A stretch of DNA of 64,000 nucleotides, from assembly GCF_024707505.1 (NCBI RefSeq), contig NZ_CP102605.1, positions 558,001-622,000 of the forward strand, read 5' to 3'. The notes beneath the pieces were generated by a model. That model worked only from the letters and a program-made list of their open reading frames with translations, had not been told where the DNA came from and searched no databases. Position 1 is the stretch's first letter, and the number at the start of each line of letters is the position of its first letter. The stretch is from Pantoea sp. SOD02 (lineage in GTDB: Bacteria > Pseudomonadota > Gammaproteobacteria > Enterobacterales > Enterobacteriaceae). This document shows positions 2,540 to 24,467 of the stretch, in pieces. Made by a program: the position numbers and the translations under genes.

Positions 2540-2540
2540 A

Positions 2541-5989: not shown

Positions 5990-6014
5990 AAGCCGGACAA
6001 TGTCCGGCTTTTTT
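5990..6014 (+). terminator. Rho-independent terminator of mqo
   Basis: An 8-bp perfect stem AGCCGGAC / GTCCGGCT with a 3-base loop (AAT) is followed by a run of Ts, 20 bp after the mqo stop codon. Confidence 0.9.
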
Positions 6015-6057
6015 ATTGTCTTTTGTAGGGGCAATAATCGTCAGTAAAGCGTCTTTT

Positions 6058-6081
6058 GGTCACCATAAATGGCGACCCTAC
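6058..6081. repeat. Short palindromic intergenic repeat, copy 1
   Basis: GGTCACCATAAATGGCGACC followed by CTAC. Imperfect inverted repeat of the window-wide family; paired with an inverted copy 20 bp away. Confidence 0.85.
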
Positions 6082-6100
6082 AAAGTATTGGCGCGTTTTT

Positions 6101-6124
6101 GTAGGGTCGCCATTCATGGCGACC
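6101..6124. repeat. Short palindromic intergenic repeat, copy 2 (inverted)
   Basis: GTAG then GGTCGCCATTCATGGCGACC, i.e. the reverse complement orientation of the other copies. It sits head-to-head with copy 1, just past the end of the dehydrogenase remnant. Confidence 0.9.
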
Positions 6125-6340
6125 GACTTACAAACGAAGAATATCTGCGCTAATCGACCCCACATTCGTTTTGCCACCAAAGCGCTGCAGTTGGCGGCTT
6201 TAGCGCGATAGCTGCTTTGCGTCCATGAACCTGCATCGATATAGTCATAAAACATTTTTGGTACGCGTTTATGGGCTAAATGGCGTAATTCTTCGATGCA
6301 GTTGATGGTCATAGAGGATATTCCAATAATATTTGGAAGA

Positions 6341-6364
6341 GGTCGCCATGAATGGCGACCCTAC
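6341..6364. repeat. Short palindromic intergenic repeat, copy 3
   Basis: GGTCGCCATGAATGGCGACC plus CTAC, between the start of the dehydrogenase remnant and the stop of the flavin monooxygenase. Confidence 0.92.
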
Positions 6365-6372
6365 GGATATTT

Positions 6373-7623
6373 TTACGACTTTTTATAATCGGTGTAGGCG
6401 TTTTGTAATGCCACATGATCGGCAATATATTTGGCATCGTGCCATACGCCGTAAATAAACGATGATGCACGATTTACCAGATTAGGTAAGCCAAGGAAGT
6501 AAATACCACGTTCCGCTGAAATACCGCGCTTATGGAACGGTACACCATTAGCGTCGAAGGCATCCACTTTCAGCCAGCTGAAATCAAATTTAAAACCGGT
6601 GGCCCAGATAATGCTGGTGATACCTGCAGCCTGCAGATCCAATTCTGATAATGGATTAATTAAACATTCTGGATCTGGCAGTAATTCCCATGCTTGCGGT
6701 TCGGGCGGTAAATCCAGGCCATTACGTTCAATATAGGTGTCAGCATCGCGCAGTACGTCGAAATAGGCTTTGTCGCCCTCGGCAATATTCTCTACTAAAC
6801 CATCGGCAAAGCTTAGCACGCCGTTATCCCAGCTTTTGGTGATACCCACCAGCGTAATGCCCATATGCGCCAGACGACGAAAATCGACCGTTTTGCCTCC
6901 TTCATAACCACTCACGGCAAAAGCAACGTGCTGTTTCTTCGGCTTGATTTTGACTTCATCCCACAAGCCCAGCGCGCCCAACCACCAGCAATAATCGCGG
7001 TCGCGATACGAACGTGGCGGCCGGTAATGTTCGCCGATGGAGAGTGTCACTTCACGGCCAGATTTACGCAGCTCTTCCGCAATTTGTGAGCCTGACGCGC
7101 CTGCGCCCACCACCAGCACGCCGCCTTGCGGCAGTTGCTGTGGATTTTTATACGCCGATGAATGGATTTGATGCAGTGCAGCACTTTCCGGCACGATCTG
7201 CGGGAAAGCGGGTTTCTGGAAGGGACCGGTTGCCGCCACCACATTGTCAGCTTCAAATTCACCGGCCGAGGTCAGTACTTTAAAACCGCTACGTTCCAGC
7301 AGACGCTCAACCGAATACACTTCCACGCCAGTACGCACCGGCGCATCGAGCATTTTTACGTAGTCTTCGAAATATTGCGCCATGCGCTCTTTCGGAGGAA
7401 AGGCTTCCTGGGAAATATTATCGAATTTCATTGAAGGAAAACGATCGTGCCAGGCTGGGCCATTGGCAACCAATGAATCCCAACGTTCTGAACGCCAACG
7501 CTCAGCAATACGGCTACGCTCGAATACCACATGTGGCACGCCCATTAATGACAGATGTTCACTCATCGCAATACCTGCCTGACCCGCTCCGACCACCACG
7601 GTATTAATTTTTTCTACTGACAT
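6373..7623 (-). CDS. Flavin-containing monooxygenase-like FAD/NAD(P)-binding protein
   Basis: A 416-residue two-dinucleotide-domain flavoprotein. The FAD fold is VVVGAGQAGIAMSEHLSLMG near the N-terminus with FERSRIAERWRSERWDSL, typical of bacterial class B flavin monooxygenases. The NADPH fold is VLVVGAGASGSQIAEEL near residue 165, preceded by QIHSSAYKNP, a loose form of the FMO fingerprint. TSIIWATGFKFDFSW is the conserved ATG motif. Such enzymes use NADPH and O2 to oxygenate a heteroatom or ketone, or decarboxylate indolepyruvate-type acids; the substrate here is unknown. It lies 125 bp downstream of the ABC permease genes on the same strand, so it may oxygenate the imported compound, which is inference. 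Confidence 0.85.
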   Translation of the reverse strand: MSVEKINTVVVGAGQAGIAMSEHLSLMGVPHVVFERSRIAERWRSERWDSLVANGPAWHDRFPSMKFDNISQEAFPPKERMAQYFEDYVKMLDAPVRTGVEVYSVERLLERSGFKVLTSAGEFEADNVVAATGPFQKPAFPQIVPESAALHQIHSSAYKNPQQLPQGGVLVVGAGASGSQIAEELRKSGREVTLSIGEHYRPPRSYRDRDYCWWLGALGLWDEVKIKPKKQHVAFAVSGYEGGKTVDFRRLAHMGITLVGITKSWDNGVLSFADGLVENIAEGDKAYFDVLRDADTYIERNGLDLPPEPQAWELLPDPECLINPLSELDLQAAGITSIIWATGFKFDFSWLKVDAFDANGVPFHKRGISAERGIYFLGLPNLVNRASSFIYGVWHDAKYIADHVALQNAYTDYKKS

Positions 7624-7748
7624 GTGAGATCCCTAAAGATGATCGACCCCGATCTTTTCATGGAAAAGAGTAATCAGGTGCCGTATGAATGATATTCAGG
7701 TTAATAAATGCTGCGCCATTAAATAAGCACAGCATTCGTGTTAATACA

Positions 7749-8567
7749 TTAATGCCCTGCTTCGACGTTCAATATTTTCCCTAAACCTAAAAACTTATTC
7801 GCGATAATTAACATCGTAGCCGTCACCGCAATATAAATAACCGACAGTGCAGCCAGCGTTGGGTCGGCAAACTCCCGCACATAGTTGTACATCGCCACCG
7901 GCAAGGTCTGAGTCGCTTGCGTGGTAATAAACAGCGAAGCGGTAAATTCGTTGAAGGAAAGAATGGCAGCAAATAACCAACCGCCAAACAAGCCCGGCAA
8001 AATAAGCGGTACGGTAATGGTCCACACCACGCGCAGCGGCGAAGCACCAAGGCTTGCTGCTGCCAGTTCAATACGCTGTTCGAGGTTTTTCAGCGACACA
8101 TACACGCTGCGCAGCACGAACGGCAGCACCAGCACGATGTGGCAGAAGATCACCAGCGGATAACCGCGTCCAATGCCCAGTTGAGAGACAAGCATCAGTA
8201 AGCCGAGACCAATGGTGAAATGCGGAATAAACAGTGGCGACAGCAGCACACCTTCCAGCACTTGTTTACACGGGAAACTGTAACGCTCAATGGCGATCGC
8301 CAGCGTGGCGCCGATAATGACCGCCAGCGTTGAAGCCCACGCCGTCACAATCAACCCGGAATAGAAGCCGTGGCGGAAGTCATCGTAATTCACCGCACGT
8401 TCGAACCAGCGCAGCGACCAGCCTTTTGGCGGGAAGAACAACACTGAGGTACTGCTGAACGAAGAGATGAACACCACAATGGTTGGCAGCAATACGAACA
8501 GTAAAATCGCGATAACCAGCGCGCGTCCCGCCAGAGTAATCAATTTATCGTTGAGGGATCGGGTCAT
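7749..8567 (-). CDS. ABC transporter permease, PotC-like
   Basis: Inner-membrane permease with about six hydrophobic segments and the EAA loop ELAAASLGASPLRVVWTITVP near residue 175, which docks the ATPase. By type it is the second permease of the spermidine/putrescine-family (PotC) importers. I chose the ATG at 8567 (MTRSLNDKLITLAGR), 1 bp after the stop of the upstream permease; the ATG at 8588 lies inside that gene. It forms an operon with the permease at 8569 and the binding protein at 9487. The matching ATPase is not here but at 15708, beyond a LysR gene and a repeat block. Confidence 0.93.
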   Translation of the reverse strand: MTRSLNDKLITLAGRALVIAILLFVLLPTIVVFISSFSSTSVLFFPPKGWSLRWFERAVNYDDFRHGFYSGLIVTAWASTLAVIIGATLAIAIERYSFPCKQVLEGVLLSPLFIPHFTIGLGLLMLVSQLGIGRGYPLVIFCHIVLVLPFVLRSVYVSLKNLEQRIELAAASLGASPLRVVWTITVPLILPGLFGGWLFAAILSFNEFTASLFITTQATQTLPVAMYNYVREFADPTLAALSVIYIAVTATMLIIANKFLGLGKILNVEAGH

Positions 8568-8568
8568 A

Positions 8569-9423
8569 TCAGTGCTCTCCCATCGCATGGATGAAGCGGC
8601 TCATACGTTTCAGCGCCATCAGCAGCATAATGGTCAGAATCAAACCGGCAATGCTGAGCGCAGCGGCAAACGGAAAATTCATTGAAGAGAAGCCCAGCTG
8701 ATACACCATGGTTGCCACGGTGCTAACGCGTCCGCCACCGATCAGCTGCGGCGTTGCGAAAGCGCTGAACGTCCAGGCAAACGCCGTGGTCAGGCTGGAA
8801 ACGATACCGGGAATCGACAGCGGAATCGTCACCGTCAACAAGGTCCGAATCGGCCCCGCGCCCAGGCTGGTGGCGGCTTTTTCATAATCGGGATTGATGT
8901 GCGACAGCGCAGTCGCCAGCATCATCACCATGATTGGCATGGTCACATGCACCAGCGCGACCACCACGCCGGTTTGGGTAAACATAAACTGGATCGGCTT
9001 GTTAATCAGACCCATTGCCAGCAGCAAGCTATTGAGGAAGCCGCTATTGCCCAGCACGATAATCCACGAATAAGTGCGTACCACTTCGCCAAGAAACAGC
9101 GGCGTAATGGCGATAATCAGAATGGTGGATTTGATCCAGGTGGTGCGCGTTCTCACCAGCGCATACGCCAGCGGATAGCTCATCAGCAGGCCAAAAATCG
9201 CGGTTTTGGCGCTGAGCATCACCGTGTTAATAAACGCATCGGCATAGATTTTCTTAAATAGCCCGTTAAAGTTCGCCAGCGTGAATCCACCCACATCGAG
9301 CGATCCGGGAATATAGGCCCGCACGCTAAACTGCATCACGGCAAACATGGCTACCACCAGCCCAATCGCCGTGAACGTAGCGGGGATAATGAACCAGGGT
9401 AAGAATGTCGGTTTTCTCGTCAT
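8569..9423 (-). CDS. ABC transporter permease, PotB-like
   Basis: A 284-residue inner-membrane permease. It starts with a short basic tail and a hydrophobic segment, and has the EAA loop YEKAATSLGAGPIRTLLTVT about residue 185. Partner of the PotC-like permease that follows after 1 bp and of the binding protein 63 bp upstream. The Pot family imports polyamines, but many paralogues in catabolic clusters carry other amines or carboxylates, so the family does not fix the substrate. Confidence 0.93.
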   Translation of the reverse strand: MTRKPTFLPWFIIPATFTAIGLVVAMFAVMQFSVRAYIPGSLDVGGFTLANFNGLFKKIYADAFINTVMLSAKTAIFGLLMSYPLAYALVRTRTTWIKSTILIIAITPLFLGEVVRTYSWIIVLGNSGFLNSLLLAMGLINKPIQFMFTQTGVVVALVHVTMPIMVMMLATALSHINPDYEKAATSLGAGPIRTLLTVTIPLSIPGIVSSLTTAFAWTFSAFATPQLIGGGRVSTVATMVYQLGFSSMNFPFAAALSIAGLILTIMLLMALKRMSRFIHAMGEH

Positions 9424-9486
9424 AGACGTTGCTGCCTGAATAAAATGGTGCGACGAACCGGGCGGCGATAAGGCCGCCCCTATTTA

Positions 9487-10518
9487 TTAATGTGACATGA
9501 TGTTTTCAGAGAACCACTGACGCCACTCGGCAGTTTTTTCCGCCCGCAGTTGTGGATCGGTGTTGATGGTGGCATTCCACTGTTCTGGCGTAGTCAGCAT
9601 GCCAGGCAGCTTCGCCAGTTCCGGATCGATATGCGCATTGGTCACCGTTGGGCTGCCGCGATAGATCTTCGCCACTTCCTGTTGGATTTCCGGTTTCAGC
9701 GCGATATTCATGAACTTGTAAGCCAGTTCCGCGTGCTTGGTGCCTTTGTTGATACCGACGGTATCGACGCCCAAAATCGCGCCCTCTTTGGGAATGGCCA
9801 GCTTAATGTTGACGCCTTCTGCAATCATGCTGTAGGCGTTCATCGACAGCATCACCTGCACCGGCGTTTCACCCGTGGAGATCAGCTGTTGGCTGTTGGC
9901 ATCATCGGTATAGAAGGATTTGATGTTCGGGATCAACGCTTTCAGCTTGGCCTGACCTTGTTCCCAGTGCGCTGCATCAGTGCCAGAGAGTTTGGCGGAG
10001 ACCGCGATGATATGGCTCGGATCCCAGTCTGGCAGTGCAATCGAGCTTTTCAGTTCTGGACGCCACAGATCGTTCCAGCTGGTGAATTCTTCGCCCTTCG
10101 GTACTAAATCTGGACGATAGCCGATGGTGTAAACGTAGCCCCATACGCCAAGGTGATACGGGCTGACTTTGGCCTGCTGCACCAGATTCACCGCGTTAGG
10201 GATTTTGCTCATGTCGAGCTTTTCAAACAGGCCGCTATTGGCATACAGATAACCGACATGCGCGGTAGTAAAGGTGACGTCGGTTTCCGGCGAGCCGCCC
10301 GCCAGCTTGGCTTTGTTTAAGCGATCGATGGTGCCGCCGGTGACGAACTGCACTTCTACACCGGTTTCTTTGGTGAACTCTTTGGCGATGGTTTGATCAA
10401 TCAGATCTTTAAAGCTGCCGCCCCAGGTGCTGACAATCAGCTTATCTGCGGCCATCGCATTCCCTGCGCTCAATACACACGTGGTCAACAACGTTAAGGC
10501 ACCAATCTTACGCAACAT
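9487..10518 (-). CDS. ABC transporter periplasmic substrate-binding protein, PotD/PotF-type
   Basis: A 343-residue secreted binding protein. The signal peptide is MLRKIGALTLLTTCVLSAG with cleavage after NAMA-A. The mature part begins KLIVSTWGGSFKDLIDQ, a common start in this solute-binding family, and contains TFTTAHVGYLYANSGLFEKLD and WGYVYTIGYRPDLVPKGEEF. It would deliver ligand to the permeases encoded just downstream. A GGGGA ribosome site precedes the ATG. First gene of the permease operon and divergent from the LysR gene at 10887, the usual arrangement for a LysR-controlled transporter. I cannot read the ligand from the sequence. Confidence 0.93.
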   Translation of the reverse strand: MLRKIGALTLLTTCVLSAGNAMAADKLIVSTWGGSFKDLIDQTIAKEFTKETGVEVQFVTGGTIDRLNKAKLAGGSPETDVTFTTAHVGYLYANSGLFEKLDMSKIPNAVNLVQQAKVSPYHLGVWGYVYTIGYRPDLVPKGEEFTSWNDLWRPELKSSIALPDWDPSHIIAVSAKLSGTDAAHWEQGQAKLKALIPNIKSFYTDDANSQQLISTGETPVQVMLSMNAYSMIAEGVNIKLAIPKEGAILGVDTVGINKGTKHAELAYKFMNIALKPEIQQEVAKIYRGSPTVTNAHIDPELAKLPGMLTTPEQWNATINTDPQLRAEKTAEWRQWFSENIMSH

Positions 10519-10886
10519 ATTCTTGTCCCCAATGAATGAAATGGCTGTTGTAGCTGCTTTGCACCACCGTCTGGTCCATCGCGTCGCAATGCACTAAAAC
10601 AGTGCGAAGGCGGCTCTCGGGTGTTGAAGCGATAATGCCGTTGCGGTGAGATTGGGTAAAACAGCATTTCCCTCGCTGTTGCATCAGAATTTCTGAGGCT
10701 AAAAAAGCGGCCTGCTTAGCAAGGATTTTCTTAAGCAGTGGTGAGGCAGAAGCGAATGGGCGCTGGCGCATGGACAGGTGATTATGCTGTGAGTCGGAAT
10801 TTGGCATGAGAAATGCTTGAGCTAAATCGACACTATTAGAATGACTGACGCGACATGAGCGTGTCAGCGATCTCAGGAGAACCTGC
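10519..10886. promoter_or_regulatory. Divergent control region of the ABC operon and LysR gene
   Basis: This 368-bp region separates the binding-protein gene from the divergent LysR gene. At 10845-10867 there is a dyad CTGACGCG...CGTGTCAG (7 of 8 arm positions pair, 23 bp overall), 20 bp before the LysR ATG. It is a candidate site for the LysR protein. A long open frame on the minus strand across this region is compositionally unlike the neighbours and I do not call it a gene. Confidence 0.45.
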
Positions 10887-11849
10887 ATGCTCAGTCGCAT
10901 CACCCAGCGTCAGCTGGAATATTTTGTCGCTTCCGGTGAAGCGGGCAGCATTATTGGCGCCTCGGAGCGTATTCACGTCTCCTCACCGTCGATTTCCGCA
11001 GCCATCACCCATATTGAGTCTGAGCTTGGCGTGCAGCTGTTTGTGCGTCACCACGCCCAGGGCGTTTCACTCACCGCAATCGGCCATCAGGTATTAAAAG
11101 AGGCCAAACTGATCCTCGAACAGATGTCGAATCTCTACACCATCGCATCGGAATCGATGAACAACGTACGCGGCCCGCTGCGCGTCGGTTGCCTCGATAC
11201 GCTAGCGCCGATGTTGACGCCGGAATTGGTGTTTGGCTTTGGCCGCGCCTTTCCCGGCGTGCGCATCTCACTGGTGGAAGGCAATCATGAGTTACTGTTA
11301 AAACAGCTGCGCTCAGCCGATATCGATATCGCCCTCACCTATGATTTGGTGCCCGCCAGCGATGTCACTTTCCAGTCGCTGGCGCAACTGCCGCCTTACG
11401 TGATGGTGGGCGAGCATCATCCGTTCGCCACACAATCTGCGGTGTCGATCCAGGATCTGGCTGAAGTGCCGATGGTGCTACTGGATATGCCGTGGAGCCG
11501 GGAATATTTTCTTGGGCTGTTCAGCGAAGCCGGTGTCACGCCGAATGTGGTGATGCGATCCAGCAGTATGGAAACGGTACGTGCGATGGTGGCGAACGGT
11601 GTCGGTTTTGGTATCGCCAACGTGCGACCCAAAGCGCACTTGTCGCAGGATGGTAAACGCCTGATTCGCGTGCGGTTGGCGGGCGTTAACAAGGCGATGC
11701 AGTTGGGTTACGCCACCATGGCGCACGTGCAGCAATCCATGGTGGTGAGCGCCTTCGCCGAGCGTTGCCGCATGTTTATTTCCGACCAATATATTCCCGG
11801 CATGGCGGCACCGAGTTATTTCGATCCGCAAGTGGTGCGGGTGGCGTGA
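10887..11849 (+). CDS. LysR-type regulator of the ABC/catabolic cluster
   Basis: A 320-residue LysR protein with an N-terminal winged helix (TQRQLEYFVASGEAGSIIGA, VSSPSISAAITHIESELG, QLFVRHHAQGVSLT) and an effector domain starting at GPLRVGCLDTLAPMLTPEL. An AGGAG ribosome site lies 7 bp before the ATG. It is the only regulator inside the 6.4-19.2 kb cluster and is divergent from the binding-protein gene, so control of the transporter, and perhaps of the downstream operon, is likely but inferred. Similar LysR proteins control amino-acid and aromatic catabolism. Confidence 0.93.
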   Translation: MLSRITQRQLEYFVASGEAGSIIGASERIHVSSPSISAAITHIESELGVQLFVRHHAQGVSLTAIGHQVLKEAKLILEQMSNLYTIASESMNNVRGPLRVGCLDTLAPMLTPELVFGFGRAFPGVRISLVEGNHELLLKQLRSADIDIALTYDLVPASDVTFQSLAQLPPYVMVGEHHPFATQSAVSIQDLAEVPMVLLDMPWSREYFLGLFSEAGVTPNVVMRSSSMETVRAMVANGVGFGIANVRPKAHLSQDGKRLIRVRLAGVNKAMQLGYATMAHVQQSMVVSAFAERCRMFISDQYIPGMAAPSYFDPQVVRVA

Positions 11850-11959
11850 GGATAAGCCGTTAGCACTCAGTTGCTGAACAGCTGAGCAGCATGCTGGCAC
11901 TGAGAAGGTTCCGCCCGCCAGAAATTGGGCAGTTTCAGCATCCGCGATGCGGCGTACGG

Positions 11960-11988
11960 GCAAAGGGCCAAATGGCGTGGCCCTTTGC
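11960..11988. repeat. Outer hairpin of repeat arm 1
   Basis: Perfect 11-bp stem GCAAAGGGCCA / TGGCCCTTTGC with a 7-base loop. No T-tract follows, so it is not an obvious terminator. Confidence 0.85.
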
Positions 11989-12245
11989 AATCCGCGCCTT
12001 GCGCCGTCCTCGCTGTTCCCTCGCTCATCCCTCCGTCCGACGGACCACGCGGATTCGCCATCCATGGCTCATGCCGCGCTTTCGCCGACATCGTGTCGGC
12101 TCATCCTGGCCGTCACTCTTCACTCGGCGCTGCGGATGACGCCCACAAACCTCGCCTGTAAGAGTCTTTTCTGAATTAAAAACAGCATGGTCTGTAGAGA
12201 TTTTGTTCGGAGAGATATTTCGTGGGTGCGCATTTTTGCGCACTT

Positions 12246-12265
12246 GGTCACCATGAATGGCGACC
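12246..12265. repeat. Short palindromic intergenic repeat, copy 4
   Basis: GGTCACCATGAATGGCGACC without the usual CTAC tail. It lies in the centre between the two inverted ~200-bp arms. Confidence 0.85.
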
Positions 12266-12488
12266 AACGGCTGAAGCGAAGGTGTGTTTATGAAACGCAA
12301 ATTGTTGCAGCGCGGCTGTTGAGGCGACATCCCATCACGCTGAACGAAAGAGTGATGCCAGGGCGAGCCGCATGGATGCGGCGAGAGGTGGCGCTGAGCA
12401 GGAGCGAATCGCCGCCGGTCCGTCAGGCAGAATGAGTGAGTGAAGGCACCGCGCAGCGGCGGGATGGGCTGGCGCAAGGCGCGGGAGT

Positions 12489-12516
12489 GCAGAGGGGCGC
12501 GCCATCGCCCCTCTGC
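12489..12516. repeat. Outer hairpin of repeat arm 2
   Basis: Perfect 11-bp stem GCAGAGGGGCG / CGCCCCTCTGC with a 6-base loop. It is in the mirror position of the arm 1 hairpin, but with compensating base changes in the stem. Confidence 0.85.
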
Positions 12517-12604
12517 TCGGTCGCCGCACGGCGTCACTGCAACTTCCCAAGCATTGGCGAACGAAAGTCGCAGTATTTAAACAAATGTCGCTCAAACTTT
12601 GACG

Positions 12605-13534
12605 TTAGTATCCTTGCTGCGGATAAACGCGATTTAAAACGGGTTCGCCGCGCGCGGCGCGCTGGATATTTTCGGCAACCTGTGGTGCGGCGCTGGCGGG
12701 AATGGCGACCGACGCCAGATGCGGCGTAATCAATACATTATCCATCGCCCACAATGCATCTTCCGGCGGCAACGGTTCGCGGTCGAATACATCCAGGGTG
12801 GCTTGACCAATATCCCCACGCTGCAATGCCTGTGTTAACGCCACCTGATCGACAATCGCCCCGCGCGACACATTGATAAACGCGCTGCCGGATGGTAAGC
12901 GAGCCAGACGTTCAGCACTCAGCAATCCCTGGGTTTGCGGCGTGAGTGGCAGCATCACCACCAAAATATCGCTGCTGGCGAGGAAATCATCCAGCACGTC
13001 AATTCCGCTGCTACAGGTAATGCCTTCGATGGTTTTCTGCGATCGCGACCAGCCACGCACATCCAAGCCCTGACGCGCCAGCTCCTGCGCGGCGTGCGCG
13101 CCCAGTTCACCCAATCCCAGCACGCCAACGCGCACGGTTTCCGGCGAACTTGGATGCAGGTAATGCCAGCGCCGTTCACGTTGTGCCCGCTCAAACGCCG
13201 GAATGTCACGCACATAGCGCAGCACGGCAAAGAGCACGAAGCCGGCCATCATGCGCGCCATATGCGGGTCAGACAAACGAACAATCGGGATATCCGGCAA
13301 ATCATCGCGTCCGACCAGCGAATCAACGCCCGCCCCCAAATTCACCAACAGTTTCAGGTTACGGTACGCAGCAAAAAAGCCGTGGGGCGGCTTCCACACC
13401 AGCGCGAAATGCACCTCATCAACTTTTTGCACCTCTTCTGCCCGACAGATATTCACGCCTGGCAGATGCGGCGCGAGCAACGCTGACCACTGATCAAAGC
13501 TGTCGAACTCGCTGTAAAACACCAGGGTACTCAT
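12605..13534 (-). CDS. D-2-hydroxyacid dehydrogenase, GhrA-like (glyoxylate/hydroxypyruvate reductase type)
   Basis: A 309-residue NAD(P)-dependent 2-ketoacid reductase. The nucleotide fold is VGVLGLGELGAHAAQELARQG and the catalytic residues are the Arg in INVSRGAIVDQ, the Glu in DVFDREPLPPEDALW and the His in LITPHLASVA. Family members such as E. coli GhrA reduce glyoxylate and hydroxypyruvate. Its ATG overlaps the stop of the dehydroquinase-like gene as ATGA. It is the last gene of the eight-gene minus-strand operon. In this context it may reduce a 2-oxoacid released from the imported compound, which is inference. Confidence 0.92.
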   Translation of the reverse strand: MSTLVFYSEFDSFDQWSALLAPHLPGVNICRAEEVQKVDEVHFALVWKPPHGFFAAYRNLKLLVNLGAGVDSLVGRDDLPDIPIVRLSDPHMARMMAGFVLFAVLRYVRDIPAFERAQRERRWHYLHPSSPETVRVGVLGLGELGAHAAQELARQGLDVRGWSRSQKTIEGITCSSGIDVLDDFLASSDILVVMLPLTPQTQGLLSAERLARLPSGSAFINVSRGAIVDQVALTQALQRGDIGQATLDVFDREPLPPEDALWAMDNVLITPHLASVAIPASAAPQVAENIQRAARGEPVLNRVYPQQGY

Positions 13535-13980
13535 GCCGCATGCGCCTTGATCAACTCGACTACCGCATCAATCGCCAGTTCGTAACCGATTACGCCCAAG
13601 CCGGCGATTACGCCGGTGGCGGCTTTCGATACCATTGAGTGATGGCGGAACGGCTCGCGCTTCCAGATGTTGCTCATGTGCGCTTCGATGATCGGGCCAT
13701 CAAACATCAGCAACGCATCGAGAATCGGCACCGAACTGTAGGTTAAACCGGCGGCGTTGATGATCAATCCGGCGGCCTGCTGACGCGCTTCCTGAATCCA
13801 ATCAACCAACACGCCTTCGTGATTGCTCTGGCGGAATTGCAGCGTGACGTTGTGCGCGGCCGCCCGGCGCTGGCAGCGTTCACCGATGCTGGCAAAGCTT
13901 TCTGTGCCGTAGGTGCCGCTTTTGTCCATGCCATACAGGTTGGCGTTTGGGCCGTTGAGGAAATAGATTTGCTGATTCAT
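13531..13980 (-). CDS. Divergent type II 3-dehydroquinate dehydratase family protein
   Basis: A 149-residue protein of the AroQ fold: FLNGPNANLYG, the flap Tyr in SGTYGTESF, QSNHEGVLVDWIQEAR, EAHMSNIWKREPFRHHS and GVIAGLGVIGYELA. True enzymes dehydrate 3-dehydroquinate through a Tyr/Arg/His set. Compared with the M. tuberculosis enzyme (from memory), the Arg of the flap (position 19) is Asp here, Gly77 is Ala, and His81 of the THTS motif is Tyr (GLTYSS), while Asn12, Tyr24, Asn75, Asp88, Glu99, His101, Arg108 and Arg112 are kept. A biosynthetic role is therefore unlikely; a related ring acid or other substrate fits better. Fused by overlap to the GhrA-like gene. Confidence 0.85.
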   Translation of the reverse strand: MNQQIYFLNGPNANLYGMDKSGTYGTESFASIGERCQRRAAAHNVTLQFRQSNHEGVLVDWIQEARQQAAGLIINAAGLTYSSVPILDALLMFDGPIIEAHMSNIWKREPFRHHSMVSKAATGVIAGLGVIGYELAIDAVVELIKAHAA

Positions 13981-14005
13981 GTGAGTTCCTGAGTCGCTAT
14001 GCGGT

Positions 14006-14029
14006 GGTCACCATAAATGGCGACCCTAC
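14006..14029. repeat. Short palindromic intergenic repeat, copy 5
   Basis: GGTCACCATAAATGGCGACC plus CTAC, within the operon between the GST and dehydroquinase-like genes; 22 bp from the next copy. Confidence 0.9.
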
Positions 14030-14050
14030 AAATGTTCTGTGCGATTTTCT

Positions 14051-14070
14051 GGTCACCATAAATGGCGACC
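14051..14070. repeat. Short palindromic intergenic repeat, copy 6
   Basis: GGTCACCATAAATGGCGACC in direct orientation with copy 5 and lacking the CTAC tail. The pair fills the only sizeable gap inside the catabolic operon. Confidence 0.88.
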
Positions 14071-14089
14071 GAATTACGATTAACGGCAA

Positions 14090-14701
14090 TCAATGCGGGC
14101 GCGTACTGGCCATTGCTGAATGGGCATCGATCACGGCAAACCAGGCAGCGGTTTGCGGATGATCTGCACGCCAGTTAAGGACTTCGAAGCGGAAATCGAG
14201 ATAACCCAGCGCGCACCCAATGGCGATCAAACCCAGGTCATTCGGCTGCGAGCTAAAACTGGCGACCTGACGTTCGATTTCCCGCAACGCGGCGCTGACT
14301 TTCTTCAGTTGTCCGTCGGCCCAACCTTGCCACTGTTTTTCCACAGGCCGCGCGCTAAATTCGTAGCGCGCCAGCAAGGCGGCATCGATCAATCCATCGC
14401 CCAACGCCTGGCGCGACAAACTCAACCAGCGCGCGTCGCCGTGCGGCGGGATTAAATCACCTTGCGCGCGGGCATTGAGGTATTCGCAAATCACGCGGCT
14501 GTCGTACAGACATAACCCTTCTTCGGTGCGCAGCGCCGGCACTTTGGCTAACGGATTAACGATGGCAATGCGCTCATCACGTTCAATCGGATGCGCCGCT
14601 GAATCTAACAGCTCAATCTCATTCGTCAGCCCAAGACAATGTGCGGTGACCATCACTTTGCGCACATAGGCGGACGTAGTGGCGTAAAACAGTTGCATCA
14701 T
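14090..14701 (-). CDS. Glutathione S-transferase family protein
   Basis: About 203 residues from the ATG at 14701 (or the adjacent ATG at 14698). The frame is open further upstream, but that part lies inside the quinone reductase gene. The N-terminal thioredoxin-like domain reads MQLFYATTSAYVRKV, NPLAKVPAL with the cis-proline, and LYDSRVICEYL for the glutathione gamma-glutamyl contact. The C-terminal part is helical (WADGQLKKVSAALREIER, GYLDFRF). Start and upstream stop overlap as ATGA. GSTs in catabolic operons isomerise ring-cleavage products or remove reactive electrophiles; either would fit. The substrate is unknown. Confidence 0.88.
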   Translation of the reverse strand: MMQLFYATTSAYVRKVMVTAHCLGLTNEIELLDSAAHPIERDERIAIVNPLAKVPALRTEEGLCLYDSRVICEYLNARAQGDLIPPHGDARWLSLSRQALGDGLIDAALLARYEFSARPVEKQWQGWADGQLKKVSAALREIERQVASFSSQPNDLGLIAIGCALGYLDFRFEVLNWRADHPQTAAWFAVIDAHSAMASTRPH

Positions 14702-15708
14702 GCCAGCGCTCCCGGCTGATCCACGCTGAGCAGCACTTTGCCAATGTTGGCGTTGGCTTCGAGGATACGATGCGCGTCCGCCGCCTGCGCCAGCGGCAAA
14801 ACTTGATGCAGCGTGGGGACGATTTTTCCTGCAGCGATGAGCGGCAGCAGATGTTTGCGGATGCACTCAGCCAGGCGCGCCTTTTCAGCAGCGCTTTTGG
14901 GACGCAGCGTGGAAGAGGTCAAACGCAATCCTTTACGCATCACCAACTGCAGATCGAGTTCGATCTTCGCGCCCTGCATAAATGACAAACTCACATGACG
15001 TCCGCCCTGCGCTAACACGCTAAGATTACGCGCCACGTAATCACCGCCGACGTTATCCTGCACCACATCCACGCCTCGACCTGCGGTTTCCGCCGCAATC
15101 ACCGCGACAAAATCCTCTTTAAAGCGATCAATGGCGCGCCAGACGCCAAGCTGTTGCAGTGCCGCAATTTTGTCGGCACCGCCTGCGGTGGCAATCACCC
15201 GCGCACCACAGGCTTGTGCGCATTGGATGGCAAAAGTGCCAACGCCGCTAGCGGCACCGTGAATCAGCACCGTTTCGCCGGGTGCTAAGCGCCCCAGCTC
15301 AAACAGGTTGTGCCACACGGTAAACGCCGCTTCGGGCACGCCTGCGGCATGCGCCAACGGCAGATTATCGGGCACCGGCAAACACAGCTCAGCGCGCGCT
15401 ACGCAATACTCGGCATAACCGCCACCGTTGAGCAGCGCCATCACCGCATCACCGATGGCGAAGCCAATTACGTCGGCACCCAACGCCACCACTTCACCTG
15501 CCACTTCCAGACCTAACACATCTGAGCAGCCCGGCGGAATGGGCATGCCGTTGCGCTGCATAATATCCGGACGATTAACGCCCGCGCTGGCGACACGAAT
15601 CAGCACTTCACCCGCCGCTGGTTGCGGCACGGCTCGTTCAACAACCGTTAAAACCTCTGCGCCGCCCGGTTGGCTGGCTATTACCGCTTTCATCATTTCA
15701 GGCAACAT
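14698..15708 (-). CDS. Zinc-free NAD(P)H:quinone oxidoreductase, MDR superfamily
   Basis: A 336-residue medium-chain reductase of the QOR/PIG3 type. Motifs are the GVNRPDIMQRNG segment, DVLGLEVAGEVVALG, the NADPH-binding LIHGAASGVGTFAIQCAQ and VQDNVGGDY. The catalytic-zinc cysteines of alcohol dehydrogenases are absent. Members reduce quinones or 2-enones with NADPH. It overlaps the ATPase stop by one base (TGATG) and the GST start by four, so all three are probably co-translated. An alternative start is the ATG at 15696 (MKAVIASQPGG). Confidence 0.92.
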   Translation of the reverse strand: MLPEMMKAVIASQPGGAEVLTVVERAVPQPAAGEVLIRVASAGVNRPDIMQRNGMPIPPGCSDVLGLEVAGEVVALGADVIGFAIGDAVMALLNGGGYAEYCVARAELCLPVPDNLPLAHAAGVPEAAFTVWHNLFELGRLAPGETVLIHGAASGVGTFAIQCAQACGARVIATAGGADKIAALQQLGVWRAIDRFKEDFVAVIAAETAGRGVDVVQDNVGGDYVARNLSVLAQGGRHVSLSFMQGAKIELDLQLVMRKGLRLTSSTLRPKSAAEKARLAECIRKHLLPLIAAGKIVPTLHQVLPLAQAADAHRILEANANIGKVLLSVDQPGALA

Positions 15709-16862
15709 CAGATCTTATCCCTGCTTAGGGTGGTAAAGGCGCAAACGCCTTCATCATCAAAGGTGATTCCCACGACGCTACCAACCGGCCAGCGCGTCAG
15801 GGAATCGAGACCAGACTGGCGCGCAAACAGCGATGCGCTGCCGAGCGCCGGCACATCAAGATGCACATCCACGTGATCGCCCTGAAACACATGGGTGATC
15901 ACCGTGGCGCTCAGGAAGGCGTGCGAAGACAGCGGCCCCAACTGAATGTTCTCGGGACGCACGTACACATCCAGACGCTCGCCAACATTCGCCTGCACAC
16001 GTTCTGCTGGCAGACGCAGCACGTTGCCACCCAGCTCAAGCACCGCCGCGTGATCGCGCCCGGCATAACGTCCCGGAAGAATATTGACGTCACCGACAAA
16101 GCCCGCCACAAAGGGATCGCGCGGCTGGCGATAGATCTCATCCGGCGTACCGATTTGGCGCACATGTCCCGCCGACATCACCACCACACGATCGCTCATG
16201 CTCAGTGCTTCACCTTGATCGTGGGTGACAAACACCGTGGTGACGCCCAATTTGCGCTGGATCGCTTTCAGTTCGACCTGCATTGATAAACGCAGATTTT
16301 TATCCAGCGCCGAAAACGGCTCATCCAGCAACAACACTTTGGGCCGGATCACCAGCGCACGCGCCAGCGCCACGCGCTGCTGTTGTCCGCCGGAGAGTTC
16401 ACGTGGTTTGCGATGGCCGTAACCCGCCAATTTGACCAAGGCTAATGCTTGCTCAACGCGCTCGGCGATTTCGGCCTTTGGCACGCCACGCATACGCAGG
16501 CCGTACCCGACGTTTTTCTCCACCGTCATGTGCGGGAACAGCGCGTAGTTTTGGAATACGATGCCGATTTCACGTTGATACGGCGGAATCTCGGTCACCA
16601 GATCGCCATCAATAAAGATTTCGCCACCGTCGGCTTCAGCAAAGCCGGCCATCAGGTTTAGCAGCGTGGTTTTGCCGCAGCCCGACGGGCCGAGCAGCGT
16701 AATAAATTCCCCTTCTTCAATGGTCAGGGAAATTTTGTGCAGCGCGATAGCGTCGCCAAATTTTTTCAGCACGCCATCTAACTGCACGGCGACGTTACTG
16801 GCTTTCACTGCCAGATGCGGCATGTCGGGCTGCGGGAATCGGGTAACTTCTGCACTGACCAT
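15708..16862 (-). CDS. ABC transporter ATP-binding protein, PotA-like
   Basis: A 384-residue importer ATPase. Walker A is LLGPSGCGKTTLLN, the Q-loop is VFQNYALFPHMTV, the signature is ELSGGQQQRVALARAL, Walker B is LLLDEPFSALD and the switch His lies in VFVTHDQGEAL. A C-terminal TOBE-type regulatory domain starts near residue 285 (LDVYVRPENIQLG). It is the only ATPase in the region and is of the PotA type, so it most likely energises the PotB/PotC-like permeases at 7749-9423, although about 6 kb and a divergent LysR gene separate them. It sits in the middle of the catabolic operon. Confidence 0.94.
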   Translation of the reverse strand: MVSAEVTRFPQPDMPHLAVKASNVAVQLDGVLKKFGDAIALHKISLTIEEGEFITLLGPSGCGKTTLLNLMAGFAEADGGEIFIDGDLVTEIPPYQREIGIVFQNYALFPHMTVEKNVGYGLRMRGVPKAEIAERVEQALALVKLAGYGHRKPRELSGGQQQRVALARALVIRPKVLLLDEPFSALDKNLRLSMQVELKAIQRKLGVTTVFVTHDQGEALSMSDRVVVMSAGHVRQIGTPDEIYRQPRDPFVAGFVGDVNILPGRYAGRDHAAVLELGGNVLRLPAERVQANVGERLDVYVRPENIQLGPLSSHAFLSATVITHVFQGDHVDVHLDVPALGSASLFARQSGLDSLTRWPVGSVVGITFDDEGVCAFTTLSRDKI

Positions 16863-16902
16863 GAACTCTCCAAAACTGTTTTGCGTGACAATGTCACAGA
16901 AA

Positions 16903-18048
16903 TTATTGACTCATCCATGCGGCTAAGCGTTGCAACATGGCGTCACAGGCTTCCAACTGCGCGATGCTGATGAATTCGTCCGGTTTATGTCCTTGCGCCA
17001 TGCTGCCCGGCCCGCAAATCACGCTGGGAATACCGGCCTGATGGAATAAGCCGCCTTCGGTGCCAAATGCCACGGTGCTGAAGTCGCTGGATTGGGTTAA
17101 ATAGGCGATCAGTCGCGCGGCCTCACTTTGGGCATCGGTCAATAATCCTGGATAGCCGCTAATCGGATAAAAATGGATCGCGCTGTCCGCTGCGATGGCC
17201 TGCATGCGCGGCAACAGTTCTGCTTGTGCGAACGCCTCGAGCTCAGCGGCGATGGCTTGCGCATCATCCTGCGGCAAGGTACGCACTTCAAAATCAAAGG
17301 CGCATTCGGCGGGCACAATGTTCAATGCGCGGCCGCCGCTGATGATGCCGGTTTGTACGGTGGTAAACGGCGGATCAAAACGAGAATCCCGATGTTGTGC
17401 CATCCGCTCGCCCATCGCCGTTAACTGCTGAATCAATCTCGCGGCATATTCGATGGCATTAACGCCCTGCGGCGCATAGGCCGAATGGCAAGCCGCACCC
17501 TTCACTTCACAGCGCACGCCCAATTTGCCCTTATGACCCAGCACTGGTTGCAGTTCGGTAGGTTCACCAATCAGGCAGATAGCCGGTTTTTCCGCACGCT
17601 GCGCCAGCGCCTCCAGCAAGGTGCGCACGCCAAGGCAGCCGACTTCTTCGTCGTAGGAGATCGCCAAATGCAACGGCTGTGTCAGCGGTTGCGCCAGAAA
17701 GTGGGGCACTGCCGCCAGCATGCAGGCGATGTAGCCTTTCATATCGGCGGTGCCGCGCCCGTATAACTTGCCGTCACGTTCGGTGAGAGCAAACGGCGGC
17801 ACGCTCCAGTTTTGTCCATCCACCGGCACCACATCGCTGTGGCCAGAAAGCATCACACCGCCATCGCCAGCTGGCCCAAGACGCGCATACAAATTGGCTT
17901 TACTGCGTTCCGCGTTGTGGATTAGCTCACAGCTGACACCCAAATCACTCAGGTAACGCCAGACGAAATCGATCAATGCCAGGTTGGATTCACGGCTGGT
18001 GGTGTCAAACGCCACCAGCTTTTCAAGCAGTTGTCGGCTGGTAAACAT
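16903..18048 (-). CDS. M20 metallo-deacylase, acetylornithine deacetylase (ArgE)-like
   Basis: A 381-residue M20 peptidase-family hydrolase, the usual ArgE length. Metal ligands and catalytic residues are visible: LSGHSDVVPVDG, GRGTADMKG, SYDEEVGCLG, IGEPTEL and a C-terminal GHKPDEF. The family removes N-acyl groups from amino acids (N-acetylornithine, succinyl-diaminopimelate and others). This copy is outside any arginine gene context and sits between a DUF1028 gene and an ABC ATPase, so cleavage of an imported N-acylated compound is more likely than arginine synthesis; that is inference. Confidence 0.93.
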   Translation of the reverse strand: MFTSRQLLEKLVAFDTTSRESNLALIDFVWRYLSDLGVSCELIHNAERSKANLYARLGPAGDGGVMLSGHSDVVPVDGQNWSVPPFALTERDGKLYGRGTADMKGYIACMLAAVPHFLAQPLTQPLHLAISYDEEVGCLGVRTLLEALAQRAEKPAICLIGEPTELQPVLGHKGKLGVRCEVKGAACHSAYAPQGVNAIEYAARLIQQLTAMGERMAQHRDSRFDPPFTTVQTGIISGGRALNIVPAECAFDFEVRTLPQDDAQAIAAELEAFAQAELLPRMQAIAADSAIHFYPISGYPGLLTDAQSEAARLIAYLTQSSDFSTVAFGTEGGLFHQAGIPSVICGPGSMAQGHKPDEFISIAQLEACDAMLQRLAAWMSQ

Positions 18049-18056
18049 AGGAACTC

Positions 18057-18731
18057 CTACTCATCGCCCGGCACGCCGTAACTGGGTGCCTGCGTTGGAT
18101 CGATGGCGCGCGTCACGTAATCGTTCATTTGTGGCTGATAGGCCAGCCACAGCTGGTCGAGTTCGCTAATCGGATCGCCATCCGTCCAGTCAACACGCAG
18201 ATCGACAATCGGCCATACCTGATCATCAACGATCGACAATGCTGAGGAGTGCACCGGCCCCGCTTCGCCGCCGGCCTGCATGCCCGCTTGCATCGCCGCG
18301 ATTAAGCGCTCGGCTAAATGCCCGGAATGCTGCTCAAAGGCGCTAACCATCGCCGGAATCACCGCAGGGTTAGCCAGCAGATTGCCCGCCGCAACACAAT
18401 GATGACCGGTTTGCGCGTTATTGATTCCCAAGGTTTTATCACCGCTAAAGCAGGCCGTTTGGCCATTCGCAGCTAACACCGTAACCTGGCGATAATGGTG
18501 ATAATCATCGCTGGCTAAACCGGCTTTGAGCGCGGCTTCTGCGCTGTCGCCTTGTTGCAGGCGATCAAGAATGCGCGGACCTAACGCCGGTAAAGTGATG
18601 TTTTGGGTTGATACTGCACCCACCGCTGAGCGTAGCCATGGGCAACGTGCGCCCACCGCAATGCTGGATGAGCTAATGGCAATGCCGATTTGGCCGGTTT
18701 CGTCGCAGCGTCCCACAATGGATAACGTCAT
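18057..18731 (-). CDS. DUF1028 family protein
   Basis: A 224-residue protein recognised by its N-terminus MTLSIVGRCDETGQIGIAIS followed by VGARCPWLRSAVGAVSTQ and LGPRILDRLQQG, features of DUF1028, thought to have an Ntn-hydrolase-like fold. The function of the family is not established. It often occurs beside M20 or other amidohydrolases, RidA proteins and ABC importers in catabolic operons, as here: 8 bp from the ArgE-like gene and 13 bp from the RidA-like gene. A role in hydrolysing an amide or processing an intermediate is a guess. Confidence 0.9.
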   Translation of the reverse strand: MTLSIVGRCDETGQIGIAISSSSIAVGARCPWLRSAVGAVSTQNITLPALGPRILDRLQQGDSAEAALKAGLASDDYHHYRQVTVLAANGQTACFSGDKTLGINNAQTGHHCVAAGNLLANPAVIPAMVSAFEQHSGHLAERLIAAMQAGMQAGGEAGPVHSSALSIVDDQVWPIVDLRVDWTDGDPISELDQLWLAYQPQMNDYVTRAIDPTQAPSYGVPGDE

Positions 18732-18744
18732 CGTCGCCTGCCTC

Positions 18745-19170
18745 TTATTCCGCTTGCCAATCGTCTGGAATAACCGCGATCACATCGATTTCCATCAACC
18801 ATTGCGGCTGACCTAAACCGGAAATCACCAAGCCGGTGGAGATCGGGAACACGCCTTTCAGCCATTTGCCGACCACCTGATACACCGGCTCGCGATAACG
18901 TGGGTCAATGATGTAAGTGGTGGTTTTGACGATGTGCGTCAAGTCGCTGCCCGCTTCTTCCAATAGCTGTTTTACGTTCTTCATCGCCTGCTCGGCTTGC
19001 GCGGCGGGATCGCCTAAACCCACCAGATTGCCCGCAAAGTCGGTGCCAATCTGCCCACGGACATACACGGTGTTGCCCGCGCGCACCGCCTGACAGAGAT
19101 CGTTATCCAGTGCCTGATTGGGATAGGTTTTTTTGGTGTTGAATTTACGGATGCGAGTATGTGTGGTCAT
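18745..19170 (-). CDS. RidA/YjgF/UK114 family protein, non-canonical
   Basis: A 141-residue Rid protein: NTVYVRGQIGTD, AEQAMKNVKQLLEEAGSDL, IVKTTTYIIDPRYREPVY and a C-terminal MEIDVIAVIPD. Canonical RidA hydrolyses 2-aminoacrylate and other imines through an Arg in the PAR-S motif. Here that segment reads FPISTGLVI, so the Arg is replaced by Ser. It is therefore probably one of the subgroups without standard imine deaminase activity that accompany specific catabolic pathways. It is the first gene of the eight-gene operon; a perfect palindrome lies about 30 bp upstream of its ATG. Confidence 0.9.
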   Translation of the reverse strand: MTTHTRIRKFNTKKTYPNQALDNDLCQAVRAGNTVYVRGQIGTDFAGNLVGLGDPAAQAEQAMKNVKQLLEEAGSDLTHIVKTTTYIIDPRYREPVYQVVGKWLKGVFPISTGLVISGLGQPQWLMEIDVIAVIPDDWQAE

Positions 19171-19200
19171 GCTTGCCTGCTATGCGAAAAGGATTTGCGC

Positions 19201-19212
19201 AAGGTATACCTT
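19201..19212. promoter_or_regulatory. Candidate operator AAGGTATACCTT before the RidA operon
   Basis: Perfect 12-bp palindrome 31 bp upstream of the RidA-like start. Its GGTATACC core recurs at 19354-19361 in the same divergent promoter region. The cognate regulator is unknown. Confidence 0.5.
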
Positions 19213-19353
19213 CCAATGCATGGCAGCGAAAACAGCATTAACCGAGGTGTTGCTTTAGAAAATCCGAAGGTGCTCACGGAGATGATTTTTAGCATTAAAT
19301 TGTGACCATCATCACCAGTCGCCTAACTGACGTTTACCGGACGCGCGTTCTGA

Positions 19354-19361
19354 GGTATACC
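19354..19361. promoter_or_regulatory. Second GGTATACC palindrome before the thioesterase
   Basis: Same 8-bp core as at 19203-19210, centred 151 bp away and 41 bp before the thioesterase ATG. Two copies in one 231-bp divergent region suggest one regulator for both directions. Confidence 0.4.
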
Positions 19362-19401
19362 ACCCTCCTTCTTCACCTAACTCTCAGATAAGGATAAAAA
19401 A

Positions 19402-19791
19402 ATGTTTACAAAGCAGTATGAGGTTGATGAAAAACATATTGATTTTCAGGGCGTGGTCGATGGCCTCTACTATCCGTTTTATATGGAGTGGACGCGCCAT
19501 GCTTATATGCGTGAAGCCCTGGGTATCGATATGGAAGAAGAGTTTAAGCAGGGCAAAATTTACATGGTGCTGGAGTATTCCCTGCGCTTTCGTAAGAGCC
19601 TGGTGAAAGGTGACAAGGTTGAAGTGACCTGCGTGCTGGCGAAGAATGAGAAGCGCAATCGCGTCAATTTTGTGCAGCAGATTCTGGTCAACGGCGTGGT
19701 GTATGCCGATGCGACTTTTGTTGCCACCTGCCTGCAGAATGGACGCCCTTCCATGCCTGATGCGGTGATGAATGCGTTAGCGGATGCGTGA
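19402..19791 (+). CDS. 4HBT-type acyl-CoA thioesterase
   Basis: A 129-residue single hotdog-fold protein. The start YEVDEKHIDFQGVVDGLYYPFYMEWTRHA (read in two parts: HIDFQGVVDG and YYPFYMEWTRHA) resembles the 4-hydroxybenzoyl-CoA thioesterase/YbgC motif, with an Asp in the catalytic position. LEYSLRFRKSLVKGDKVEV is the typical central strand pair. An AAGGA ribosome site lies 7 bp upstream of the ATG. It would hydrolyse an acyl-CoA in the cytoplasm. It is divergent from the RidA operon and may belong to the same regulon, judged only from the shared palindrome core. Confidence 0.87.
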   Translation: MFTKQYEVDEKHIDFQGVVDGLYYPFYMEWTRHAYMREALGIDMEEEFKQGKIYMVLEYSLRFRKSLVKGDKVEVTCVLAKNEKRNRVNFVQQILVNGVVYADATFVATCLQNGRPSMPDAVMNALADA

Positions 19792-19806
19792 TGCGGTTTT
19801 GGTAAG

Positions 19807-19830
19807 GGTCGCCATGAATGGCGACCCTAC
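19807..19830. repeat. Short palindromic intergenic repeat, copy 7
   Basis: GGTCGCCATGAATGGCGACC plus CTAC; here the flanking bases extend the pairing to 11-bp arms. Between convergent thioesterase and aldolase genes. Confidence 0.93.
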
Positions 19831-19836
19831 GTACAT

Positions 19837-22114: not shown

Positions 22115-22135
22115 TATAAACTCCAGGTAAAAAGT

Positions 22136-24116: not shown

Positions 24117-24467
24117 TCTTGACGCCCTTGGTTGTTTTTCACCGTTACCCACCATGGATACGTTTATACGAGAGATAAGTAACGAGGAAAATACTAAATG
24201 ATGGGCAGAAGATGGACATATCGTTGAACACTTAAACTCAACTAATATAGGAACGTGGATTTAAACTCTACGGGAGGTTAATTCGTTATTATTATAGGTG
24301 GAGTTATTTTGACGCAGCCATCAATTTTCCACATAAGCGCGATTAAAAGAGCCAGAGAATGTGAAAAGTGTGATGGGCATCATCATGCTAATCGCCAATG
24401 GCGACTATTTTCGGCTGCCAATTGATTCTGGGTTTAATGAGTTTAATGCTTTGCAAAAGAAATAATA
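24117..24467. other. Intergenic region upstream of the PRD regulator
   Basis: This AT-rich stretch of about 350 bp holds the presumed promoter of the PTS operon. I recognise no gene. A short CGCCAATGGCG near 24400 resembles half of the palindromic repeat but is too short to call. Confidence 0.3.

Follow-up and report, generated by a model that had tools for sequence, protein, structure and literature searches.

Layout of the locus

Thirteen genes, lysR included, that occupy positions 6373-19170 of a 64,000-nt stretch of Pantoea sp. SOD02 (contig NZ_CP102605.1, positions 558,001 to 622,000; the whole stretch is called the window and all positions below are counted in it) probably enable this plant-associated bacterium to take up a small ring compound that contains nitrogen and to degrade it by oxidation. 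The window is part of a 927-kb contig in a genome of 5.15 Mb and two contigs, and we infer from the nearest named relatives of the cluster that the contig carrying it is a megaplasmid. Every gene named here is an open reading frame (ORF) at the coordinates listed; gene families were assigned by matches to Pfam and NCBIfam profiles, which bear out the gene set and the families given in a preliminary description of this DNA. The genes for a flavin monooxygenase (FMO), potC, potB and potD are on the minus strand and lysR is on the plus strand, divergent from potD. On the far side of lysR, the minus strand carries an operon of eight genes: ridA, duf1028, argE, potA, qor, gst, aroQ and ghrA. The genes and the two copies of a putative regulator-binding element are:

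6373..7623, minus strand: flavin monooxygenase (FMO), core enzyme; Pyr_redox_3/FMO profiles, distant to the MSMEG_0569 and ArsO families
7749..8567, minus strand: ATP-binding cassette (ABC) permease, PotC-like; BPD_transp_1; start taken from the length annotated in a relative
8569..9423, minus strand: ABC permease, PotB-like; BPD_transp_1
9487..10518, minus strand: substrate-binding protein of the PotD-like family with an altered ligand pocket; SBP_bac_8
10658..10682, minus strand: putative regulator-binding element GCAACA-N9-ATGCTGTTTT, upstream of potD; dyad AACAGC-N9-GCTGTT
10887..11849, plus strand: LysR-type regulator, divergent from potD; LysR profiles
12605..13534, minus strand: 2-hydroxyacid dehydrogenase, GhrA-like; 2-Hacid_dh_C; NF012013 at 208 bits, below the cut-off of 403
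13531..13980, minus strand: AroQ-like protein of the dehydratase family; DHquinase_II; Asp19, Tyr81 and Trp106 replace Arg, His and His
14090..14701, minus strand: glutathione S-transferase (GST)-like protein; GST profile; start taken from the length annotated in a relative
14698..15708, minus strand: PIG3-type NAD(P)H quinone oxidoreductase (QOR)-like protein (MDR); ADH_zinc/PIG3; TIGR02824 at 416.5 bits, cut-off 296.8
15708..16862, minus strand: PotA-like ABC ATPase, assigned to the PotDBC-like transporter; ABC_tran and TOBE_2
16903..18048, minus strand: M20 amidohydrolase, ArgE-like; M20 peptidase profile; metal ligands intact
18057..18731, minus strand: DUF1028 protein; DUF1028 profile; Thr2, Ser4, Cys9 and Cys30 invariant
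18745..19170, minus strand: Rid-family protein, PxSTG-type subfamily, catalytic Arg absent; Ribonuc_L-PSP
19229..19253, minus strand: second copy of the element GCAACA-N9-ATGCTGTTTT, upstream of ridA

Five junctions of the eight-gene operon had been described as abutting or overlapping, which is roughly right: three of the seven overlap (potA/qor by 1 nt, aroQ/ghrA by 4 nt and, with the GST start used in a relative, qor/gst by 4 nt) and two are spaced 8 and 13 nt; the remaining two are spaced 40 and 109 nt. The GST reading frame probably starts near 14701 and not at 14866.

Gene order, co-occurrence and a shared promoter element

The closest named relative of the cluster is found in Pantoea sp. 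SO10 (90.8% DNA identity over 94% of the query), and the DUF1028 protein of P. endophytica is 95% identical. The same gene order was read in records of Pantoea megaplasmids and of a conjugative plasmid of Klebsiella pneumoniae. Further, in the alphaproteobacterium Roseinatronobacter sp. S2 all thirteen genes including lysR lie on one strand in a single run, in the order FMO, AroQ, GhrA, binding protein, permease, permease, ATPase, QOR, GST, Rid, DUF1028, LysR and ArgE; the proteins are 41-72% identical to those of the window, and the binding protein, which is unannotated there, was located by sequence search. Since the arrangement is kept across genera and in an alphaproteobacterium, it goes beyond chance. 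Aminobacter sp. MSH1 carries a set in which a flavin reductase and an HpaB-type oxygenase replace FMO and ArgE is on the opposite strand.

The gap between lysR and ghrA amounts to 755 nt here vs ~5 to 113 nt in the seven relatives examined. The repeat block in this gap (~11855-12600) belongs to a dispersed intergenic Pantoea repeat, of which the same genome holds 15 or more further long copies (80-88% identity, 270-361 nt; 40 of 362 candidates were scored), and on plasmids it was matched in Pantoea only (35 of 35 records). The single match of an Rfam scan of 6000-20000, TwoAYGGAY at 12039-12108 on the minus strand, lies inside it. As the block is dispersed in the genome and absent from the lysR/ghrA junction of the seven relatives, it was rejected as a part of the system.

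A DUF1028 orthologue at an E value of 1e-45 or better is held by 36 of 398 Pseudomonadota genomes (25 of 212 genera). These genomes matched at 38 places, from which 35 regions were tallied (two genomes give two each; the own genome and two of the same genus were left out), presence being a tblastn match above chosen thresholds within ~10 kb or to the contig end. Rid was found in 34 of the 35 loci, LysR in 29, FMO in 25, HpaB in 8, either FMO or HpaB in 32 and M20 in 25; an aldehyde dehydrogenase was present in 13 and a reductase of the old-yellow-enzyme type in 7. The oxygenase is thus interchangeable while Rid and DUF1028 are constant, and FMO or HpaB, Rid and DUF1028 make up the wider core, to which LysR and M20 are usually added. 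The same core was seen in 19 named loci, which include contig-edge fragments (Rid 16, M20 17, HpaB 8, FMO 5). The binding protein of the window type occurred in six of the 35 loci, from six genera. AroQ and GhrA were each present in five of these six and in none of the 29 others (Fisher p 2e-5), GST and QOR each in four of the six and in none of the 29 (Fisher p 3e-4), in a test that ignores relatedness, with six of the 35 regions coming from one genus and the loci not being independent. The two halves of the locus thus co-occur in other genomes, the point on which the preliminary description had staked its claim of one uptake-and-catabolism system spread over two operons.

Within the genus, the DUF1028 gene is present in 19 of 36 genomes, the own one included and a distant DUF1028 paralogue (L039) excluded. 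Four of them have the cluster of the window type (the own genome, L021, L022 and L023), and 15 loci, here called type B, have FMO, Rid, DUF1028 and M20 without the PotD-like binding protein of the window. FMO is directly beside Rid in 13 of the 15 type B loci; in L035 the M20 gene is only a fragment, and in L037 FMO matches in two pieces. The window-type locus L022 (genome G016) appears disrupted, as though the cluster were decaying: the matches to potD, gst, qor, potA and argE are each split in two.

Upstream of both potD and ridA stands the element GCAACA-N9-ATGCTGTTTT, of which the potD copy contains a perfect dyad, AACAGC-N9-GCTGTT; the pattern was built from these two promoters, so its perfect match there is not evidence by itself. 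The two upstream regions share a gapless similarity of 25 nt with 20 identical positions. No place in the whole genome other than the potD and ridA copies matches with fewer than two mismatches, and three match with two. Both sites are kept, with 0-3 mismatches, in seven further loci (L021, L022, L023/L042, L040, L041, L045 and L066), of which L023/L042 is one organism and some are close relatives. We infer that LysR binds this 25-nt element. A sigma-70 scan gave 8 sites vs a shuffle mean of 10.9 and a terminator scan 14 vs 17.3, hence no enrichment; because both are below the shuffle level, no promoter claim rests on them. The ORF at 10508-10903, of which a 99-aa part is annotated as a hypothetical protein in Pantoea sp. 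SO10, gave no Pfam or NCBIfam match and spans the potD/lysR promoter region, and was thought unlikely to be a gene.

That the two halves form one system is strongly supported by the conserved order, the single-strand run in Roseinatronobacter, the co-occurrence and the shared element, so that the claim of one system over two operons stands. Two independent neighbours, a PotDBC-type transporter with an orphan FMO next to a separate catabolic operon, could be read from the two minus-strand groups split by a plus-strand regulator and from the 755-nt gap seen here, but such an importer would be without an ATPase, and the order kept across genera and on one strand in Roseinatronobacter, the association of five of six vs none of 29, the position of FMO beside Rid in type B loci and the shared element all argue against it. 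This explanation is largely refuted and we consider it highly improbable.

Plasmid carriage is widespread. In PLSDB, 156 records match the cluster, among them 103 of Klebsiella, 12 of Pantoea and 7 of Escherichia; in 104 of the 156, a count not split by organism, a single place covers 80% or more of the query. The conjugative Klebsiella plasmid NC_023334.1 (IncFIB/IncFII; L040) carries the complete cluster as cargo, flanked by vapB/PIN genes and IS903B on one side and, beyond FMO, by an alpha-hydroxy acid oxidase gene on the other. A megablast search of 5426 complete E. coli genomes gave one match, on a plasmid and covering 40% of the query at its best place; E. coli chromosomes as hosts were rejected, this sole match being partial and plasmid-borne. 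M20 was rejected as a marker of the system, since three plasmid regions picked by it are without DUF1028. Carriage on plasmids of environmental and clinical enterobacteria would suit a detoxification of a plant or fungal N-heterocyclic toxin with secondary recovery of carbon, as would FMO, GST and the quinone-reductase-like protein, typical members of detoxification systems. Yet a dedicated importer with a binding protein, and NCS1 or TRAP transporters beside the core elsewhere, point to uptake for use, and we regard detoxification as quite improbable.

The neighbourhood of the core varies between lineages. An alpha-hydroxy acid oxidase gene is nearby in Klebsiella, Roseinatronobacter and the locus L129. 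Core loci of Parasedimentitalea, Pseudohalocynthiibacter and Leisingera include an aldehyde dehydrogenase gene and a 2070-nt oxidoreductase gene, which is of the Oxidored_FMN type by Pfam in Parasedimentitalea. NCS1 permeases, a TRAP transporter and GMC oxidoreductases adjoin the core in other lineages. In the SAR116 record L046, which is without FMO, a Rieske oxygenase gene separates Rid from DUF1028, and a metagenome-assembled genome of a gammaproteobacterium (L051) has HpaB and PhyH beside Rid and DUF1028. In the window itself, leuC-like, leuD-like and mqo genes (1904-5970) adjoin the cluster, a place kept in Pantoea sp. SO10 and P. dispersa, and may belong to a neighbouring pathway. At the ridA end, in 19837-24155, are genes for a class II aldolase and a phosphotransferase system fructose-type IIBC protein, followed by two ORFs whose translations give the impression of a IIA protein and a PRD-type regulator.

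Residues of the binding protein and the enzymes

The binding protein and the permeases score far below the equivalog cut-offs of NCBIfam (PotD 82.8 vs 582 bits), and the ATPase passes the potA subfamily cut-off (374.6 vs 355.6 bits). The polyamine pocket of PotD we take to be formed by Trp34, Glu36, Tyr37, Asp168, Glu171, Trp229, Trp255 and Asp257. In an alignment with the PotD chain 8y5h_E, read by hand, the acidic positions Asp168 and Asp257 are kept and the others are changed (Trp34 to Phe, Glu36 to Asp, Tyr37 to Leu, Glu171 to His, Trp229 to Leu and Trp255 to Gly), positions 34, 36 and 37 falling at the less certain end of the alignment. The acidic and aromatic pocket of polyamine-binding PotD is thus not present as such, most of the aromatic box being gone. 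From these residues, a polyamine is an unlikely ligand and a positively charged ligand is plausible.

The residue counts that follow come from loci that include near relatives and one organism twice and are not independent. The Rid protein belongs to the Ribonuc_L-PSP family (PF01042, 80.6 bits, cut-off 27.3) and falls below the cut-off of TIGR00004 (64.5 vs 106.25). RidA deaminases have a catalytic Arg of the Arg105 type in the motif PAR. In the Rid protein of the window, PIS aligns with the PAR of three solved relatives, and in the best matches of 89 loci the Arg position is Ser in 82, Cys in 6, Phe in 1 and Arg in none (P-x-[SCF]-T-G). The AroQ-like protein is above the cut-off for PF01220 (165 bits) and NF003806 (186) and below that of the equivalog TIGR01088 (154.9 vs 169.85). 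Type II dehydroquinases have the catalytic Arg23 (S. coelicolor numbering); where they have Arg, His and His, the AroQ-like proteins of all 16 loci, two of which are the same contig, carry Asp19, Tyr81 and Trp or Phe106, while Tyr24 and Arg112 are kept. The chromosome of the same genome encodes two other AroQ-family proteins, one with Arg, His and His (L068) and one whose alignment stops short of the Arg (L067), and since these are present, shikimate synthesis probably does not need the AroQ-like protein. The annotations 'RidA' and 'type II 3-dehydroquinate dehydratase' are probably misleading for both subfamilies wherever they are found.

The M20 protein is above the cut-offs of TIGR01892 (390 bits, cut-off 297.7) and NF005710 (572, cut-off 412), and its metal ligands His70, Asp102, Glu134/135 and His354 are kept in at least 78 of 79 loci; the gene context is not that of arginine synthesis. 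In the DUF1028 protein, presumably Ntn-hydrolase-like, Thr2, Ser4, Cys9 and Cys30 are invariant in 93 of 93 loci.

The preliminary description had favoured as substrate an amino compound conjugated to a cyclic acid, of which M20 and DUF1028 would split the amide and FMO, QOR, GST, AroQ and GhrA would process the acid. Two hydrolase-type genes and a co-inherited enzyme module that looks made for a ring acid are indeed there. Two of its arguments lose weight, however, since the Rid-like and AroQ-like proteins are missing residues of their namesake enzymes, the catalytic Arg of AroQ being absent from all 16 loci. Moreover, AroQ, GhrA, GST and QOR were not found in 29 of the 35 loci and Rid accompanies DUF1028 in 28 of these, so the core does not need the acid part. 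An N-acyl conjugate is improbable in our view.

Proposed pathway and known systems

We give a probability of roughly 60% to the reading that the locus encodes one LysR-controlled system that takes up a small N-heterocycle or betaine, probably cationic, and opens it by oxidation. The binding protein, the two permeases and the ATPase would form one ABC importer whose ATPase is encoded in the other operon, as the comparison of genomes supports, and the LysR protein encoded between the operons would control both promoters, as the shared and conserved element suggests. The substrate would be small and organic and carry a positively charged nitrogen, an N-heterocycle or a betaine-type carboxylate being the most likely candidates. 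FMO, or elsewhere the HpaB-type oxygenase plus flavin reductase, would oxidise and destabilise it, leaving amide or enamine intermediates for DUF1028, the M20 amidohydrolase and the Rid-like protein to open and trim. A second module of QOR-like, GST, AroQ-like and GhrA-like proteins could reduce, isomerise and dehydrate the carbon skeleton and yield a 2-hydroxy or 2-oxo acid; some relatives have an aldehyde dehydrogenase and a reductase of the old-yellow-enzyme type, which may stand in for this module.

Several observations weigh against this reading, in addition to the origin of the element pattern and the relatedness of the loci mentioned above. With up to three mismatches, the element matches at 79 places in the genome vs 27 for the pattern read backwards, and at 3 in the window vs 1.14 expected, a number that 8 of 100 shuffles reach; the 25-nt similarity of the two upstream regions is reached by 1 of 1000 shuffled pairs and by 4 of 986 random pairs of window stretches. 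The type B loci have no element site with fewer than three mismatches, and an Acetobacter locus of another layout (L072) has one site with two. M20 is absent within ~10 kb in 10 of the 35 loci, including four of the six with the binding protein, and FMO is absent in four of these six, of which three have HpaB and one has neither. Three of six plasmid regions picked by M20 or cluster match show no DUF1028 nearby, the annotated plasmid regions having been chosen by hand from spread or best-match lists and not randomly. Because the known catalytic residues are absent, the roles given to the Rid and AroQ-like proteins are guesses, and with NCS1, TRAP and GMC neighbours in other lineages the substrate may differ between lineages.

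A more specific proposal is that of a new, aerobic pathway, extending over SAR116 and Rhodobacterales as far as Burkholderiales and carried by plasmids in Klebsiella, in which a cationic N-heterocycle is opened by FMO or HpaB together with the Arg-less Rid protein (PxSTG), DUF1028 and M20, and in which changes of Arg to Asp and of His to Tyr have turned a member of the AroQ family into a dehydratase for a positively charged ring. We put it forward tentatively and doubt it rather more than we trust it. If true, DUF1028 would gain a pathway context, as would the Rid and AroQ subfamilies with their misleading annotations. The cluster is a metabolic cargo matched in 103 Klebsiella plasmid records, and its substrate is directly testable with one importer, one regulator and a defined promoter element. 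A literature search with partial coverage found no paper with the word DUF1028 and none describing this gene set; absence from print is not claimed.

A pathway for the catabolism of homarine (N-methylpicolinate) was reportedly described by Ferrer-Gonzalez et al. in 2026 (Nat Microbiol 11:1531). It is said to lead to N-methylglutamate and glutamate, and its operon to be named homABCDER and to occur in Rhodobacterales and SAR116. The cluster could encode this pathway or a terrestrial version of it with the same end products, and the core in marine relatives is possibly the same: it was found in SAR116 records and, with LysR, an aldehyde dehydrogenase and the 2070-nt oxidoreductase gene, in marine Rhodobacterales, and aldehyde dehydrogenase plus Oxidored_FMN-type chemistry would fit the loss of one ring carbon and saturation. 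Passages on homarine in PMC12817926 and PMC9038784 name no genes; Mgd takes part in homarine catabolism according to an excerpt of PMC13390433. The Mgd step has no obvious enzyme here because the own genome encodes no soxB-family protein above the cut-off (best 85 vs 529 bits), soxB being a proxy for Mgd only. Besides, the SAR116 locus with the Rieske oxygenase has no FMO, and the AroQ/GhrA/GST/QOR module is absent from most other core loci. Homarine is a lead, though unlikely on balance.

Other known systems resemble parts of the cluster. The best NCBIfam match of FMO is the MSMEG_0569 oxidoreductase of Nit1C, over the full length but at 344.7 bits and below the cut-off of 498.35; among the annotated neighbours in the Klebsiella and Pantoea records read, no other known gene of the Nit1C cluster was named. 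The PotABCD and PotFGHI importers are alike in the families and the subunit plan of binding protein, permeases and ATPase, whereas here the binding protein and the permeases are below the equivalog cut-offs, the pocket is altered and the ATPase is encoded in another operon. Type II 3-dehydroquinate dehydratase (AroQ) has PF01220, Tyr24 and Arg112 in common with the AroQ-like protein, in which Arg, His and His are replaced.

A parallel in logic is the Rut pyrimidine pathway (RutA-F), in which a flavin-dependent oxygenase opens an N-heterocycle and RutC, a Rid-family protein, and hydrolases process the unstable nitrogen-containing intermediates. The cluster is not a member of this pathway: its oxygenase is of the FMO/HpaB type and no luciferase-like RutA is among the thirteen genes, the Rid protein scores 37.8 bits vs the RutC cut-off of 169.1 and is without the catalytic Arg, and we know of no Rut counterpart of the DUF1028, M20, AroQ-like and GhrA-like genes. 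What the two would share is the sequence of events, a flavin oxygenase acting before a Rid-family protein and hydrolases.

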